DNA from: Barnesiella sp. An22
GTDB lineage: Bacteria > Bacteroidota > Bacteroidia > Bacteroidales > Barnesiellaceae
Direction: 5' to 3'
Length of the DNA: 64,000 nucleotides
NCBI RefSeq assembly: GCF_002159975.1
Contig: NZ_NFJR01000005.1
Coordinates: 62,001 to 126,000, forward strand
Both the position numbers and the translations under genes were made by a program. Under the pieces are notes generated by a model. The model saw only the letters and a list, made by a program, of their open reading frames with translations, ran no database searches and had not been told where the DNA came from. This document shows positions 24,601 to 28,997 of the stretch, in pieces; position 1 is the first letter of the stretch, and the number at the start of each line of letters is the position of its first letter.

Positions 24601-25259
24601 GCCTCATTGAACGTGCTCAACGGAATTCCCCACCAGTTGTAGTTCAAGAACAGTGACGTACGGATGTGCTCTCCATCGCCAAAGGTTTCGTTGTTGTGAG
24701 AACCGAGACCCTGGTCAAAATTGATCTGACCATTATCGTTCGTACCATCATACCAGAAGTTCTCGGCTACGGGGTTTCCTTGTTCGGTCAAATATTTGTG
24801 TACCTCTTCGTTCAGAGCGCGCACATTAGACAGCATCGTCGTATTCGAAGTGTTGAACTCCGAGTTGTAACCGAGACCATCTACACCGTGATAGTGAAGG
24901 AATTTGGCTACCTTCTCACGAATGGTCGCATTCTTGGACATGTTATCCAAAGCGGTAGCCCAATCGGAAGACAAACTGCCCCAGGGAATAGAGGCCACAC
25001 CCGATACTCCTACACCGTTTTTATGGGCGGCATCGGCAAAACCACCGGGCACCCAGCCTTGCGGAGCGGTCCAGTTGCCATAGTGGGTAACATACGACCA
25101 CATACTGAATACTTCGGAATCGAACTTGCCGTTAGGCCGTGCATTCGGGTTACCACCCGAAGCGGTACCTATGGGAACCCAGAACACCAGGTTCTTGTCG
25201 GTCTCTTCGGTCAATGTTTCGTTAATCTGCGTGTTGGCATTGCGGAAACGAGCTTTGGG
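21681..25259 (-). pseudogene. GH85 endo-beta-N-acetylglucosaminidase, 5' end lost to a mobile element
   Basis: At least 1177 residues remain. GH85 enzymes cut between the two core GlcNAc residues of N-glycans. The catalytic pair is in DGLGYNSEF (Asn117 and Glu119 counted from the first start-like codon, a TTG at 25214), the Asn-x-Glu arrangement of this family. A LamG-type domain (about 770-945), Ig/PKD-like regions and a C-terminal type IX secretion sorting-like domain (VYNVSGMLVAQ, GVYVVKV) follow. The open frame extends upstream to a stop at 25260-25262 inside the inverted repeat of the element. No signal peptide is present and no ATG before MWSYV, so the native start was displaced. ATGAAAAGCAAATTTTTT on the minus strand at 27868, across the element, could be the lost start. 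Function is doubtful unless an alternative start is used. Confidence 0.8.
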
Positions 25260-25260
25260 T

Positions 25261-25294
25261 CACACTTATATACTTTAATGTACCAACACTAAAA
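25261..25294. repeat. Left terminal inverted repeat
   Basis: 34 bases that are the exact reverse complement of 27816-27849 (CACACTTATATAC... and TTTTAGTGTTGG... ends). The outer base on each side (T at 25260, A at 27850) extends the match by one. Confidence 0.93.
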
Positions 25295-25337
25295 TCATTG
25301 CCTTGATACATATACAAAGATATTAAACTTTGATACA

Positions 25338-25744
25338 ATGGCAACAGATAACTTTCTGACAACGAAATCTGTTCTCGGTTTGGCGGAGCGAGTAGTGAAA
25401 TGTCCCCCCCCGAGATATTAGTTCTTAATCCAATTGATGGTCAATGGGGTGGAGGTGGTAGTGGAGGGAAATGGGGTGCCTATGTTGACCACATGACAAC
25501 CAATGACCTCCAAAATTACCAATTGATACCTAAACTTTCTGTTGGTCAGTCAATACTATTCCAATTTACCGCTCAAGATATTGGTGAAACCATTACAATT
25601 CCCATTACTCTGTTCTGCATTGACAACTATAATTATATGTTGAGACACATGTTTTATTGGAATGGTGATATGGTTAATGCCGAACTGGATTATAATCCAA
25701 ATGGCCAAATATCATTTAGCCTTGGTGGTACAAGTTTTCAATAA
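25338..25744 (+). pseudogene. Cargo ORF split by a C8 tract
   Basis: Translation from ATG at 25338 (MATDNFLTTKSV) reaches a stop 27 codons later, just after a run of eight C at 25404-25411. One extra C would join it to the open frame that continues to 25744, giving a protein of about 135 residues. The second part has a Gly-rich stretch (GQWGGGGSGGKWG) followed by a beta-rich region. I recognise no family. Whether the tract is a mutation, a phase-variable switch or a sequencing slip cannot be told here. Confidence 0.5.
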
Positions 25745-26106
25745 ACGCCTCCTTTGCCATATTTCTAATAAACCCAAATCCAAGAATTAAATCCTTGATA
25801 CTTCTTGTTTCCCCTCGTGGCGGGAATGGTACCAAATAATGGTATTTATTATCCCAATATCCTCCCGTTACGAGGATTAAATCCTGAAAACTGAAAATTT
25901 CTGAAAATTTTTTCTTGAAATTGATAACATTTCGCCGTTTTCTTGTATAATTAGCAACATCGTAACAGATACGCCAATGGCTGCCCGAACAAGGCAGCCA
26001 TTTTTAGTATAGACTCAATGAAAAAATAATTTGAAAATGTTATCAAATTATAACTCATTGATAGTTAATATGTTAAATAAACATATTATATTTATATAAC
26101 AAAATA
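25745..26106. other. Gene-free part of the element
   Basis: No credible ORF. It contains two ATTAAATCCT sequences (about 25786 and 25881), a terminator hairpin (25977-26001) and a 14-base direct repeat (below). AT-rich throughout. Confidence 0.6.
25977..26005 (+). terminator. Rho-independent terminator inside the element
   Basis: ATGGCTGCC (25977-25985) pairs with GGCAGCCAT (25993-26001) around a 7-base loop, then TTTT. It would end transcripts of the C-tract ORF. Confidence 0.85.
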
Positions 26107-26120
26107 ATGTTATCAAATTA
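26037..26120. repeat. 14-base direct repeat ATGTTATCAAATTA, two copies
   Basis: Identical copies at 26037-26050 and 26107-26120. The second copy contains the first possible start codon of the truncated transposase ORF. Confidence 0.7.
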
Positions 26121-26403
26121 CAATTTCAAAGGCGAAGACTATAGAATGAAGATTTACAAATCATTCGATGATATGAGAGATGCTCTAAAAGATGAGACTG
26201 GATTTAGAGAGTTTCTTGAACAGGCAAAATGGAGAGGCACACCAGTATGTCCTCATTGCGGCTGCATATCAGCAGAGCATTACAAGTTGAAGACCAATGG
26301 AGAATTCAAAGGTCTATACAAATGCAAGCATTGCCGAAAGCGTTTCACAGTCACAACCAAGACAATGTTTGACAGAACACATCAAGAGATGTTTGCTTTC
26401 TAA
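26107..26403 (+). pseudogene. Truncated IS1595-family transposase (zinc-ribbon domain only)
   Basis: 98 residues from 26107, or 85 from the ATG at 26146, which begins MKIYKSFDDMRDALKDE and fits the family better. The zinc ribbon is intact: CPHCG and CKHCRKRF, with the usual FTVTTKTMFDRT ending. A full IS1595 (ISXO2-like) transposase is about 300 residues and continues into a DDE/DDN catalytic core; here a stop follows almost at once. The peptide might still bind element ends, but it cannot catalyse transposition. Confidence 0.75.
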
Positions 26404-26474
26404 TTCGTACTTTTGTTCTCGCAACAGCCCTGCCCGTTTGCGTGGGTGAGAAATAAGGTATATATTTGTACCTA
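26404..26474. other. Inverted repeats overlapping the cargo promoter
   Basis: TTCTC (26416-26420) with GAGAA (26448-26452), and GCAA (26421-26424) with TTGC (26438-26441), form nested dyads that cover the -33 box. They could be an operator for a repressor rather than RNA structure, since they lie upstream of the expected transcript start. Confidence 0.4.
26437..26468 (+). promoter_or_regulatory. Consensus Bacteroidales promoter of the cargo operon
   Basis: TTTG at 26437-26440, a 20-base spacer and TATATTTG at 26461-26468, an exact consensus match. Transcription should begin near 26474, about 260 bases ahead of the first cargo ORF. Confidence 0.75.
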
Positions 26475-26690
26475 AATATTGGATAGAACACGAAAGTGTT
26501 TGAACCTTATTCCTTTCAGACGAATCTGGTAAATTTTTCTTGGACGGGAATAAGTGCCACCTCTCACTATGCTATATGGTGCAGAGGCTGTTGCTTATTT
26601 AGTCCAAAGGCTTTACCAGAGCCTGTCTGAAGAAATAGCAATGGCTCTCTGCACTTTCTTTTGTTCCCCAATCAGCCACAAGGGGATGCC
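26474..26690 (+). ncRNA. Candidate structured RNA or regulatory leader
   Basis: Helices visible in the expected transcript: AACAC-GAAA-GTGTT with a GNRA loop (26487-26500); CAGA-CGAA-TCTG (26517-26528) enclosed by CTTATTCC / GGAATAAG (26506-26513 with 26547-26554); CCTCT-CAC paired with GTG-C-AGAGG (26560-26567 with 2679-like positions 26579-26587); a long stem 26581-26600 with 26633-26652 that includes two G-U pairs; AGGCT / AGCCT inside it (26608-26612 with 26620-26624); and TCCCC / GGGGA (26665-26669 with 26682-26686). CCTCTCAC and the long stem compete for 26581-26587, and the promoter-side AATAAGGT could compete for ACCTTATT, as in RNA switches. G-U pairs and the GNRA loop point to the plus strand. 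I match no named RNA family. Confidence 0.5.
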
Positions 26691-26734
26691 GAAAACCTTA
26701 TCAAAGAGTAGGCAAAACTAATAACATAAGTATT

Positions 26735-26929
26735 ATGCCAAGTTTTTTGCTCAAGGGTACTGCACAAACCCAAATCGGTAAAATTCCAAGAGGTGCAACG
26801 ATTCAAGTAATTAGTCAATCTGGTTCTTGTCCAAGTCAACAAGAAATCCTTACTGCAATAAGGGCTCAATTCGGTATAAATGAGCCAAATGCCAGACCAC
26901 ATTTTTTCAAATGGGAACAAGTGAAGTAA
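26735..26929 (+). CDS. 64-residue protein of the cargo operon
   Basis: 64 residues, beginning MPSFLLKGTAQTQIGKIP. It reads as a small beta-rich fold followed by a helix (QQEILTAIRAQFG) and a polar tail. No signal peptide, membrane segment or known motif. The stop (26927-26929) is directly followed by the ATG of the UDG-like gene with no spacer, so the two are probably translated together. Codon use is AT-rich, as in the rest of the element. Confidence 0.6.
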   Translation: MPSFLLKGTAQTQIGKIPRGATIQVISQSGSCPSQQEILTAIRAQFGINEPNARPHFFKWEQVK

Positions 26930-27748
26930 ATGCCTATGCGAGACCTATTCTGTAACGAATGCGGTCTGTCCTATGATATTCCACACCTTGTTGCCGAAAG
27001 GTTGCTTGGTGTGGAATATCTGCATAGGATAGAAAACCGCTATGAACAGATGCGCAAGTACTATGACTGTACTTGTGTAGAATGGCAAGGAGTGTTTACA
27101 GAGGATTTGAAACCATTTGGTGGATATGACGACACCACCTCCGTGACCATTCCGATTGGCAACTCCCAATTAGGCGCTGACACCAAGACACTGCATAAGG
27201 GGGCAATCGGAGTGGACTTGCCCACTTGGTTCAATGTTCAAGACAACAAGCATATAATGATTGTTGCACAAGACCCATTGAGGAACAACAAGTATTATGG
27301 AGAATGCTATGATGCGGTTATTTCAAGTCCATTTGGCTTGCACTCATTGGAGCATAGACAGAATGCGAGAGGTGGCAAAATGATGGATTTGCTCGTAAAG
27401 AGACTAGTAGCCAATGGATATGGCATTTATCTGACTGATGCCAACAAGTTCTTTATCTATGACCATAAGATAACCGATGAGTTCTCCGGTGCTCATATAG
27501 ACGAGTATGCAGAAATTATGAGACAAGAGATAGAGATTGTAAAACCTACTGTAATCGTGTGCCTTGGCAGGAGTGCCGAAAGGATGTGCAAAAAAATGGG
27601 ACTGTGGAACATTTTGGCATTGCCACATTTGTCTGGAACCGCTCGTGGTGCTATTGTGAGAAAATTCCCAAGATTAGAGGAGATTGGAGCCACAGCAGAG
27701 AACATTGCAGAGGAGTATGCAAGAGAAATTATTAGAAAAATCCAATGA
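26930..27748 (+). CDS. Uracil-DNA-glycosylase-superfamily-like protein
   Basis: 272 residues. Two short segments resemble the UDG superfamily active-site motifs: VAQDPLR (about 112-118; family 1 has GQDPYH) and LPHLSG (about 231-236; family 1 has HPSPLS), separated by about 115 residues with the expected strand IVKPTVIVCLG between. Both the Asp and the His positions are therefore present. The N-terminal part has CNEC (Cys8, Cys11) and CTC (Cys47, Cys49), which could bind metal or a cluster, as in Fe-S containing UDG families. The assignment is by motif only; a repair enzyme, an altered-base nuclease or a non-enzymatic relative are all possible. It starts right after the 64-residue gene. Confidence 0.65.
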   Translation: MPMRDLFCNECGLSYDIPHLVAERLLGVEYLHRIENRYEQMRKYYDCTCVEWQGVFTEDLKPFGGYDDTTSVTIPIGNSQLGADTKTLHKGAIGVDLPTWFNVQDNKHIMIVAQDPLRNNKYYGECYDAVISSPFGLHSLEHRQNARGGKMMDLLVKRLVANGYGIYLTDANKFFIYDHKITDEFSGAHIDEYAEIMRQEIEIVKPTVIVCLGRSAERMCKKMGLWNILALPHLSGTARGAIVRKFPRLEEIGATAENIAEEYAREIIRKIQ

Positions 27749-27761
27749 CTTGAACGGAAAA

Positions 27762-27791
27762 TCCCACAAACCATTTGCATGGAATGTGGGA
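27762..27791. other. Symmetric hairpin near the right end of the element
   Basis: TCCCACA pairs with TGTGGGA (27762-27768 with 27785-27791), then an AA/AA internal loop, then CCAT-TTGC-ATGG. It lies 14 bases after the UDG-like stop and lacks a T-run, so it could be a weak terminator or a subterminal structure of the element. Confidence 0.5.
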
Positions 27792-27815
27792 GAATACTTA
27801 TAACTTTGAACTGAT

Positions 27816-27849
27816 TTTTAGTGTTGGTACATTAAAGTATATAAGTGTG
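27816..27849. repeat. Right terminal inverted repeat
   Basis: Exact reverse complement of 25261-25294. The bases beyond it on the minus strand read ATGAAAAGCAAATTTTTT, possibly the original GH85 start. Confidence 0.93.
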
Positions 27850-28079
27850 AAAAAAATTTGCTTTTCATCTTCAAAAAAGACAGAACTCCCATAATACAGA
27901 CACCCCCGCTCTTCCTCCCGCGACACCCGTTTGCCCGACGACAGGCAAAAAGTTCGGCCTCAACCGCCGCTGTGGTATTAAAAATTCCATCGCCTGCTTT
28001 TGTTAAATATGGCTAACCCACCCCCAGTGACAGGCGAGTTTGACCTATCTTTATGCCTCTCAATAATCGATACCGCTTC

Positions 28080-28997
28080 ATGTTCAAAAAAACTGTAATT
28101 CTCATCACAACAGCAGCCCTCTGGAGTGCCGGAGTATCGGCCCGAACCTTCTCGCCCGAGGCGGCTACGGCTGCCCGGCAACAAATAGAAACGCTCTTGC
28201 AAGACAAAAAGGCGACGGTGGGTGTAGCCTGCTCAATCGACGGAGACGACTTTGCCCTCAACGACACGGTGCGCTACCCGCTCATGAGTGTATTCAAACT
28301 GCATGTGGCCGTGGCTGCCCTGCAACGCATGGAGGCCGAGGGGACCCGGCTCGACGAAGCTTTGACCATCGACTCTACCCAAATGCACCGCGACACCTAC
28401 AGCCCGCTGCTCGGACTCTATCCCTCGGGCAACTTTCGCATCTCGTATACCGACCTGTTGCACTATGCCCTAGCCTTGAGCGACAACAATGCCTGCGACA
28501 TCCTCATCGACTATGCCGGCGGCATCGGGGCGATAAAACATTGTATCGACCGGGCGGGCATCACAGGGTACGACCTCGCCGAGACCGAGGCCTCGATGCA
28601 CGCCGATATACCCGCCTGCTATCGCAACTGGGCCCACCCCTCGTCGGTGGTACAACTGCTGCAAAAGATTCTCGACGGCTCGTTGCTGAACGAGGAGCAT
28701 ACCCGCTTCATGCGCACGACCCTCGTCGAGACCTCGACAGGGCTCAATAAAATCAGGGCAGGCCTTCCCCCGGAGATTGTTCTGGGGCACAAGACCGGCA
28801 GCTCGGGACAGTTGCCCGATGGCCTGACGATTGCCGACAACGACGCCAGCTTCTTCTGCCTGCCCGACGGCCGCCTCTGTTTCCTGGTCGTCTTGGTGAA
28901 GGACTCCCGCGAAAGCGAAACCACCAACGCCGCCCTCATTGCCCGAATTGCCCGCATCGTCTACGACACCGCCACCGCGAATCAACTCTCCCGATAA
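28080..28997 (+). CDS. Class A beta-lactamase, subclass A2-like
   Basis: 305 residues with a signal peptide (FKKT, hydrophobic core, cleavage near VSA-RT). Serine beta-lactamase motifs: S70-V-F-K73 in PLMSVFKLH, SDN at 134-136, the omega-loop Glu in ETEASMHAD (about 168-170), and KTG at 238-240. The omega-loop wording is that of the Bacteroidales subclass A2 (CblA/CepA/CfxA-like) enzymes, which hydrolyse penicillins and cephalosporins in the periplasm. The ATG at 28080 is chosen for its normal signal peptide; an upstream ATG at 28053 adds MPLNNRYRF. It is only 230 bases beyond the right end of the mobile element. No strong promoter is seen (a TATCTTTA box at 28046 has one mismatch). Activity is not proven. 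Confidence 0.92.
   Translation: MFKKTVILITTAALWSAGVSARTFSPEAATAARQQIETLLQDKKATVGVACSIDGDDFALNDTVRYPLMSVFKLHVAVAALQRMEAEGTRLDEALTIDSTQMHRDTYSPLLGLYPSGNFRISYTDLLHYALALSDNNACDILIDYAGGIGAIKHCIDRAGITGYDLAETEASMHADIPACYRNWAHPSSVVQLLQKILDGSLLNEEHTRFMRTTLVETSTGLNKIRAGLPPEIVLGHKTGSSGQLPDGLTIADNDASFFCLPDGRLCFLVVLVKDSRESETTNAALIARIARIVYDTATANQLSR

Follow-up and report, generated by a model that had tools for sequence, protein, structure and literature searches.

We have found a family of structured RNA leaders, recurrent in Bacteroidota, in which two hairpins are joined through their loops and the second hairpin has the layout of a terminator. From sequence comparison, the leader is probably a cis-acting transcription attenuator belonging to a new RNA family.

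Setting of the leader

The leader described here lies in a 64,000-nt stretch of DNA from Barnesiella sp. An22 (the window), inside a small mobile element with the following layout.

25260-25294 and 27816-27850: perfect terminal inverted repeats of 35 bp, bounding a small IS1595-type element with cargo
26107-26403: shortened IS1595-type transposase ORF (PF12760, E 2.8e-12)
26404-26734: leader stretch, between the shortened transposase ORF and a 64-aa ORF
26735-26929, + strand: 64-aa ORF, the first gene 3′ of the leader, with no Pfam match
26930-27748, + strand: ORF of the uracil-DNA-glycosylase (UDG) superfamily (PF03167, E 1.7e-10)

The start codon of the ORF after the leader is at 26735, a correction to the earlier note on this DNA. 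In L035 (loci are cited by L numbers) the ORF behind the same leader has 39% identity to the 64-aa ORF of the window. A blastn search of the element (26100-28000) against phage and plasmid records gave no match.

A family of leaders

Two models were built, R1 from nine sequences in a MAFFT alignment and R2 from 97 matches; their E-values are rough. Window positions 26461-26734 make up one member of the family, with its core as follows.

26503-26668, + strand: conserved RNA core, matched by R1 and R2 (R2 103.8 bits, E 1.1e-13; the window sequence itself is among those used to build both models)

Identical or near-identical cores were removed before counting. R1 has matches in 118 of the 393 genomes examined from the order, with several in many of these and tandem arrangements in some; R2 has matches in 59 of 395 genomes of the phylum. 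Both figures are undercounts, since only seven candidates were scored per genome. The window's own genome holds 11 places that match R2 at E ≤0.01, this leader included (nine at E ≤0.001). An exact two-loop pattern, ATCTGGTAAATTN{62,92}TTTACCAGA, hits at least 118 stretches in the genome collection, and among the pattern matches listed 79 of 80 loci also match R2 (E ≤0.01), the exception being L160 from Mucilaginibacter. Three of nine viral contigs match R2. Member records come from Bacteroides xylanisolvens, Phocaeicola coprocola, Parabacteroides, Hoylesella, Rikenella microfusus, Alistipes, Capnocytophaga, Flavobacterium, Tenacibaculum, Arcicella and four Fibrobacter or Fibrobacterales records. 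One copy, L214, belongs to the gut strain Bacteroides xylanisolvens XB1A (NC_021017.1). L150 and L155, from records titled Sporosarcina and Clostridia, are of the type found before dihydrofolate reductase (DHFR)-like genes; these two may be mis-binned or transferred.

Counting the window's own, genomes from three families carry near-identical copies of the leader. Over about 26479-26712, taken in 50-base steps, L035 and L036 (from genomes of other families) are 92-100% identical to the window. By the same measure L035 has 42-74% identity in the small ORF and 64-92% in the UDG gene, and L036 has 78-98% in the UDG gene; in L036 the leader is followed by another gene, a 561-aa ORF with the look of a secreted protein. 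The leader thus resembles a module that may outlive its neighbour genes. Diverged copies in other genomes mostly show 69-76% identity over 70 to 150 bases, with some shorter stretches higher, and keep the shape.

The core and its homologues have no match among the 4227 families of Rfam 15, and a known family for the core was found in none of the scans, which were run at E ≤1 on window 25200-28100 and 15 loci, at E ≤0.1 on 16 loci, and at the gathering threshold on 11 loci and the entire window. The earlier note had been unable to place the leader in any known family; this holds for the core and fails for the last 36 bases, which belong to a described motif.

26679-26714, + strand: Rfam DUF805b RNA (RF02914, 45.6 bits, gathering cut-off 35.6)

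The RNA family, with a core that has no Rfam 15 model, would therefore seem to be new. The same note had considered the leader a working RNA of the element. We reject this idea because the family is independent of IS1595-type elements: it reaches far beyond them and precedes many unrelated genes.

Promoter boxes and folding of the window leader

The 5′ part of the leader carries two boxes of one type.

26408-26415, + strand: distal promoter box TACTTTTG, TAnnTTTG type, assigned from sequence (related members share the layout)
26421-26429, + strand: strand z, GCAACAGCC, putative 5′ end of the distal-promoter RNA and perfect complement of 26586-26594
26461-26468, + strand: proximal promoter box TATATTTG, a TAnnTTTG box common across members
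26487-26500, + strand: GNRA hairpin AACAC-GAAA-GTGTT

Both the promoter claimed ahead of the leader (the box at 26461-26468) and the GNRA hairpin are present as described in the earlier note. Among 165 members, 109 have TAnnTTTG between −130 and −20 relative to the core, against a shuffle mean of 14.9; for a control stretch farther upstream the count is 10 of 151. Six matches that are antisense shadows were dropped from the promoter-box and downstream-ORF counts.

The leader stretch 26404-26734 folds at −103.7 kcal/mol (z −4.67; none of 100 shuffles equal), and for 26474-26737 the folding z is −3.84, with one of 200 shuffles as good. The pair 26452-26459/26504-26511 of the earlier note, in which L035 departs from the window by one base, begins upstream of the predicted proximal start and would be possible only in RNA begun farther upstream.

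Structure and covariation of the core

The helices of the core are listed below; covariation is given against its null, and cis energies (both strands from one member) against trans energies.

26506-26554, + strand: 5′ hairpin HP1, s1 (26506-26513) with s3 (26547-26554); covariation 0.62 against a null of 0.25±0.02
26515-26521 with 26625-26631, + strand: s2ext:s6, inter-loop helix; cis −10.4 against trans −3.5 kcal/mol in 92 members
26525-26533 with 26612-26620, + strand: loops of H2 and H5, kissing; covariation 0.44 against 0.12, 99% paired
26540-26545 with 26602-26607, + strand: s3pre:s4post, inter-loop helix; covariation 0.47 against 0.21
26579-26600 with 26633-26654: HP2, made of b:c and s4:s7 and ending in a U-tract
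26593-26639, + strand: s4 (26593-26600) with s7 (26633-26639), the inner part of the terminator-like HP2; covariation 0.74 against 0.24
26608-26624, + strand: hairpin H5, AGGC...GCCT

A covariation analysis of homologues found that the pairs proposed from the window alone are kept through compensatory changes. This applies to the helix 26506-26513/26547-26554 and to the long stem 26581-26600/26633-26652, in which b:c (covariation 0.51 against 0.32) adds to the stronger signal of s4:s7. Three well-supported helices, s2ext:s6, H2:H5 and s3pre:s4post, were absent from the earlier note.

The nested, terminator-like fold has 94.1% of 2998 cells paired in 96 distinct rows. This set still includes one antisense shadow, L075, which was removed from the pair statistics. 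The covariation of the fold is 0.488 against 0.214 in shuffled alignments (0 of 500 as high) and at most 0.085 when the fold is slid along an alignment that had been fitted to it. RNAalifold, applied to an unfitted MAFFT alignment of nine members, picks the same fold, with 9 of 30 pairs changed on both sides. The inter-loop helices covary although they lie outside R1, the model that made the alignment, and three unrelated strand pairs taken as controls stay near the null. In the column test the best diagonal was chosen on the real data and the same diagonal was kept for the null; one alignment analysis skipped columns with more than half gaps.

For s2ext:s6 the column covariation is 0.58 against 0.21. 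This helix and s3pre:s4post are paired in 65 and 59% of column cells, low shares that arise because positions shift and lengths change between members. The comparison of cis and trans energies avoids this problem for s2ext:s6, and s3pre:s4post, taken together with the neighbouring s3 and s4, gives cis −17.2 against trans −10.3. For H2:H5 the same comparison is circular, its anchor having been chosen by complementarity, and column covariation is the fair test. Pair statistics come from row set A3; the loci of set A4 were found by the exact loop pattern, and their H2 and H5 loops are therefore no independent test. Across the pairs there are 414 G-U pairs against 38 A-C mismatches, an asymmetry indicating that the conserved molecule is the + strand RNA.

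Energy minimisation favours a single long hairpin. As the sole fold we rejected it, because its outer helix s1:s7 has a covariation of 0.26 against a null of 0.24 and shows no cis excess (cis −4.9 against trans −4.6). A partner exchange by branch migration among s1, s3, s4 and s7 was dropped on the same grounds.

Terminator-like end and competing strands

The competing strands and the U-tract are as follows.

26560-26567, + strand: strand a, antiterminator-like partner of b (26579-26587)
26579-26594, + strand: strand b, common partner of a, c and z
26642-26654, + strand: strand c; 26647-26654 pairs with b (26579-26586) and 26642-26646 with d (26674-26678)
26655-26665, + strand: U-tract after the stem
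26666-26685, + strand: d hairpin, CCCC/GGGG, with strand d in its loop

In 184 of 195 members six or more of the nine nucleotides after c are T, a count reached by 12 of 183 control 9-mers; because the models cover the U-tract, members are in part selected for this feature. A simple scan for consensus terminators, which allows loops of 3-8 only, found nothing; the terminator-like stem of the leader encloses a long structured loop.

The energies for b:c are −17.4 in cis and −12.7 in trans, and those for c:d −9.8 and −7.7, while the control pairs a:c, b:d and a:d differ by at most 0.6 kcal/mol. For a:b the values are −13.9 and −11.6 kcal/mol, a cis excess of 2.3, and the stretch from a to b folds with z < −2 in 82 of 95 members (single-letter shuffles); its column covariation is marginal at 0.34, the null having a mean of 0.30 and a maximum of 0.34. 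The competing helix 26560-26567/26579-26587 claimed earlier is thus real, with weaker support than b:c. Given this and the lack of covariation in s1:s7, complete refolding into a second state is not proven. The near-identical copies L035 and L036 do not keep the pair c:d, and in other members, L063 and L067 for example, it is weak. Strand d comes after the U-tract, and c:d on its own therefore cannot block termination.

In nested folding of the window RNA, b pairs with a at 0.61-0.87 and with c at 0.0. The best nested fold, which contains a:b, has −65.9. The terminator fold (−38.0) and the inter-loop duplex (at most −27.6) together come to about the same value; this sum is an upper bound, since it includes no pseudoknot penalty and counts some pairs twice. 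On these modelled values the energies of the two states are plausibly similar, and the calculation says no more than that.

Proposed mechanism

Comparison of members shows a family with conserved pairs, a U-tract, a preceding promoter box and a place before genes. It bears out the earlier description of a switch-like leader: the helices covary, the mutually exclusive partners a and c of strand b are both conserved, a promoter box stands before and a gene after. The pattern is that of an attenuator, with a conserved stem leading into a U-tract and a conserved helix, a:b, that excludes b:c. Attenuation is the best fit because it accounts for the promoter box, the sensor-like core, the terminator-like stem with its U-tract, the competing helix, the tandem copies and the nearness of a gene; against it stands the fact that the downstream genes share no pathway. 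We infer termination, switching in the cell and a signal that acts on the loop-loop core.

RNA polymerase would start at the TAnnTTTG promoter and make an RNA of roughly 190 nt, in which the two hairpins would lock by their loops through s2ext:s6, the kissing H2:H5 and s3pre:s4post. In the OFF state the second hairpin (b:c plus s4:s7) and the U-tract behind it would act as a terminator. In the ON state b would be held by a, leaving c free, possibly to be held by d; the terminator would not form and transcription would read through into the gene. In the subset of members with a distal promoter, z at the 5′ end of the RNA would hold b in place of a.

The leader might instead control translation or mRNA stability, b:c and c:d burying or freeing the start region and the U-tract serving as a spacer or protein site. 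In many members c:d would put a pseudoknot close before the start codon, and in some DUF805 or DUF805b elements follow; we consider this unlikely, because a T run placed directly after a G+C-rich stem in 184 of the 195 members is the layout of a terminator and some members have a weak c:d or none.

Distal promoter and the tag

The attenuator model can be extended to members with a distal promoter. After eleven matches that are antisense shadows had been dropped, GCAACAGC was found within 230 nt upstream in 13 of 195 members, 10 of which carry its complement GCTGTTGC in the core; 18 cores hold GCTGTTGC in all. Six loci (L073, L112, L102, L132, L159 and L208) have a different tag that is still complementary to their own b, over 9 to 13 nt. 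Eleven members (L045, L040, L036, L035, L053, L161, L188, L073, L159, L208 and L112) have a TAnnTTTG box whose start is 11-14 nt upstream of the tag; L048, L197, L102 and L132 have no such box, and in L047 it is 21 nt away. For complementary runs of at least 10, the counts are 14 of 190 members in cis and 9 of 1125 pairings in trans; certain cis runs, such as those in L092, L108 and L163, lie elsewhere and may be due to chance. This suggests that long RNAs from the distal promoter could capture b and read through.

A wider reading would join these elements into a phylum-wide RNA device for plug-in control of horizontally moved genes, in which a terminator hairpin and an upstream hairpin would lock by their loops into an intramolecular four-way-junction complex and the choice of promoter would set the outcome. 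The distal-promoter RNA would start with a tag z of about 10 nt directed against b, so that long transcripts would read through and short ones stop, and the controlled genes would include restriction enzymes against modified phage DNA, type III methyltransferases and UDGs. This reading is doubtful: the tag is found in a small subset of members only, and in nested folding of the window the share of z:b is low, 0.30 for RNA reaching to the U-tract and 0.11 for RNA reaching to the start codon.

Genes behind the leaders

In 188 of 195 members the ATG of an ORF of at least 50 aa lies no more than 420 nt behind the leader; the distance is at most 120 nt in 155 of them and 30-60 nt in 97. Judged by a crude pattern, the first ORF starts like a secreted protein or lipoprotein in 60 of 94 cases. 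Tandem leaders, either two before one gene or adjacent leader-gene units, are seen at L092, L108, L118, L122, L073 and L085. The set of 96 matches behind the tandem and first-ORF surveys still includes the antisense shadow L075.

Pfam and PADLOC searches covered 150 downstream proteins, cut at 300 aa (11 of 161 ORFs had been dropped beforehand); the sample was shaped by the searches made, so the gene counts are not unbiased frequencies. At least one protein matched each of 84 Pfam families, the commonest of which was matched by 12. The proteins include 12 with RibD_C (DHFR-like), seven PvuRts1I-like restriction enzymes, four N6/N4 methylases and one C5 methylase. Among the PADLOC matches listed (25 families) are seven modification-directed restriction enzymes and four type III methyltransferases. 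By eye, small helix-turn-helix proteins recur, as does a second UDG relative (L159). Across the 150 proteins we did not find the downstream genes of one pathway expected of a metabolite riboswitch; a riboswitch deduced from gene content was ruled out, the genes being too mixed.

A leader with an identical R2 score is found in Parabacteroides, Phocaeicola, Bacteroides, Hoylesella, Xylanibacter and Leyella records. In three of the four plasmid records that match L170, the gene after this shared leader is annotated as a ‘dihydrofolate reductase family protein’ and lies beside a sigma-54 dependent regulator; the fourth carries no annotation at that gene.

The position of the genes bears on the idea of a free-standing, trans-acting small RNA, about 190 nt long and unconnected with the gene that follows. 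Such an RNA would be framed as the leader is, by a promoter box and a terminator-like end, yet it would leave unexplained the start codon within 120 nt in most members (155 of 195), the covariation of c with d beyond the U-tract and the ability of several leaders to stand in tandem before one gene; we judge it improbable. That the leader is a DNA palindrome or mobile repeat (a recombination site or MITE-like sequence) devoid of RNA function is hardly credible, for although it forms a long imperfect palindrome, with near-identical copies in the genomes of three families and copies in elements common to several genera, G-U pairs outnumber A-C mismatches on one strand (414 against 38), the promoter box, U-tract and start codon keep preferred positions and the helices covary without sequence identity.

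As a putative attenuator with several copies per genome in many Bacteroidota and strong covariation, the leader would constitute a major regulatory class in gut bacteria. It precedes accessory genes (secreted-looking proteins, restriction-modification and genes of elements common to several genera), and the signal it responds to could explain how acquired DNA is controlled in Bacteroidota.

Relation to known systems

Attenuators and riboswitches whose expression platform is an intrinsic terminator have the order promoter, leader, gene, with a terminator stem and U-tract, a competing helix and, in cases, tandem copies. The leader shares this layout, its terminator-like stem with a U-tract, a competing helix and tandem copies. 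It differs in having no known aptamer, in preceding genes without a common pathway and in a terminator loop that is itself paired to the loop of an upstream hairpin. In CopA/CopT and related antisense kissing complexes, two hairpins pair through their loops and a four-way junction can form. The loops of the two hairpins of the leader kiss likewise; unlike in CopA/CopT, both hairpins belong to one RNA and the second is terminator-like.

The closest descriptions in the literature are of palindromic candidates with predicted terminators, mostly or wholly from Bacteroidetes, among them HMP2_4205, a 132-bp sequence near TPR genes (PMC8040213, in the part available); compared by description only, the available text mentions neither a two-hairpin loop-loop structure nor a switch for them. 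Long 5′ UTRs and predicted terminators have been reported in B. thetaiotaomicron, with no mention of such a family in the accessible portion of the paper (PMC7366714), and the accessible portions of PMC11109978 and PMC8632094 contain no passage on Bacteroidetes genera. None of the titles and abstract openings listed from the openly licensed literature describes such a leader; among openly licensed papers, supplements excluded, none contains ‘DUF805b’ and none combines ‘DUF805’ with ‘RNA motif’. Our claim of novelty follows from Rfam 15 and this literature (supplements excluded), neither of which shows such a core.

DUF805b (RF02914) matches the last 36 nt of the leader in L035 and L036 as it does in the window, and DUF805 (RF03081) follows the core in L068 and L071. 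Among 43 sources scanned (40 distinct places), five have DUF805 or DUF805b at the cut-off and L062 has one below it. Both are short elements in their own right, located near the start region; neither matches the core of about 165 nt. The DUF805 sites are at 1396-1464 in L068 and at 1692-1757 and 2656-2724 in L071; the recurrence farther downstream in L071 makes DUF805 look like a separate start-proximal element. In the genome of the window, a DUF805b-like site below the threshold (32.3 bits) lies at L003 1501-1535 (G000:C2:80556-80590), before an outer-membrane-protein-like ORF, and R2 has no match at this site.

Other features of the element

L035 keeps more of the transposase gene than the window does, split over two separate ORFs, so that the L035 copy too looks interrupted. 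A target-site duplication is not visible at the window copy; the ends of the L035 copy have a short direct repeat. The two copies differ in where they carry an extra cargo ORF of 114-122 aa: it is at one end of the element in the window (25400-25744, with no Pfam match) and at the other end in L035 (9899-10267). Upstream of the transposase, window 25768-25960 shows inverted repeats by eye, and parts of it are 96% conserved in L035; it is possibly a second structured RNA, and a search for repeats of at least 18 nt gave none in this stretch. Just beyond the element, at 28053-28997, is a beta-lactamase-superfamily ORF (PF13354, E 7e-33).
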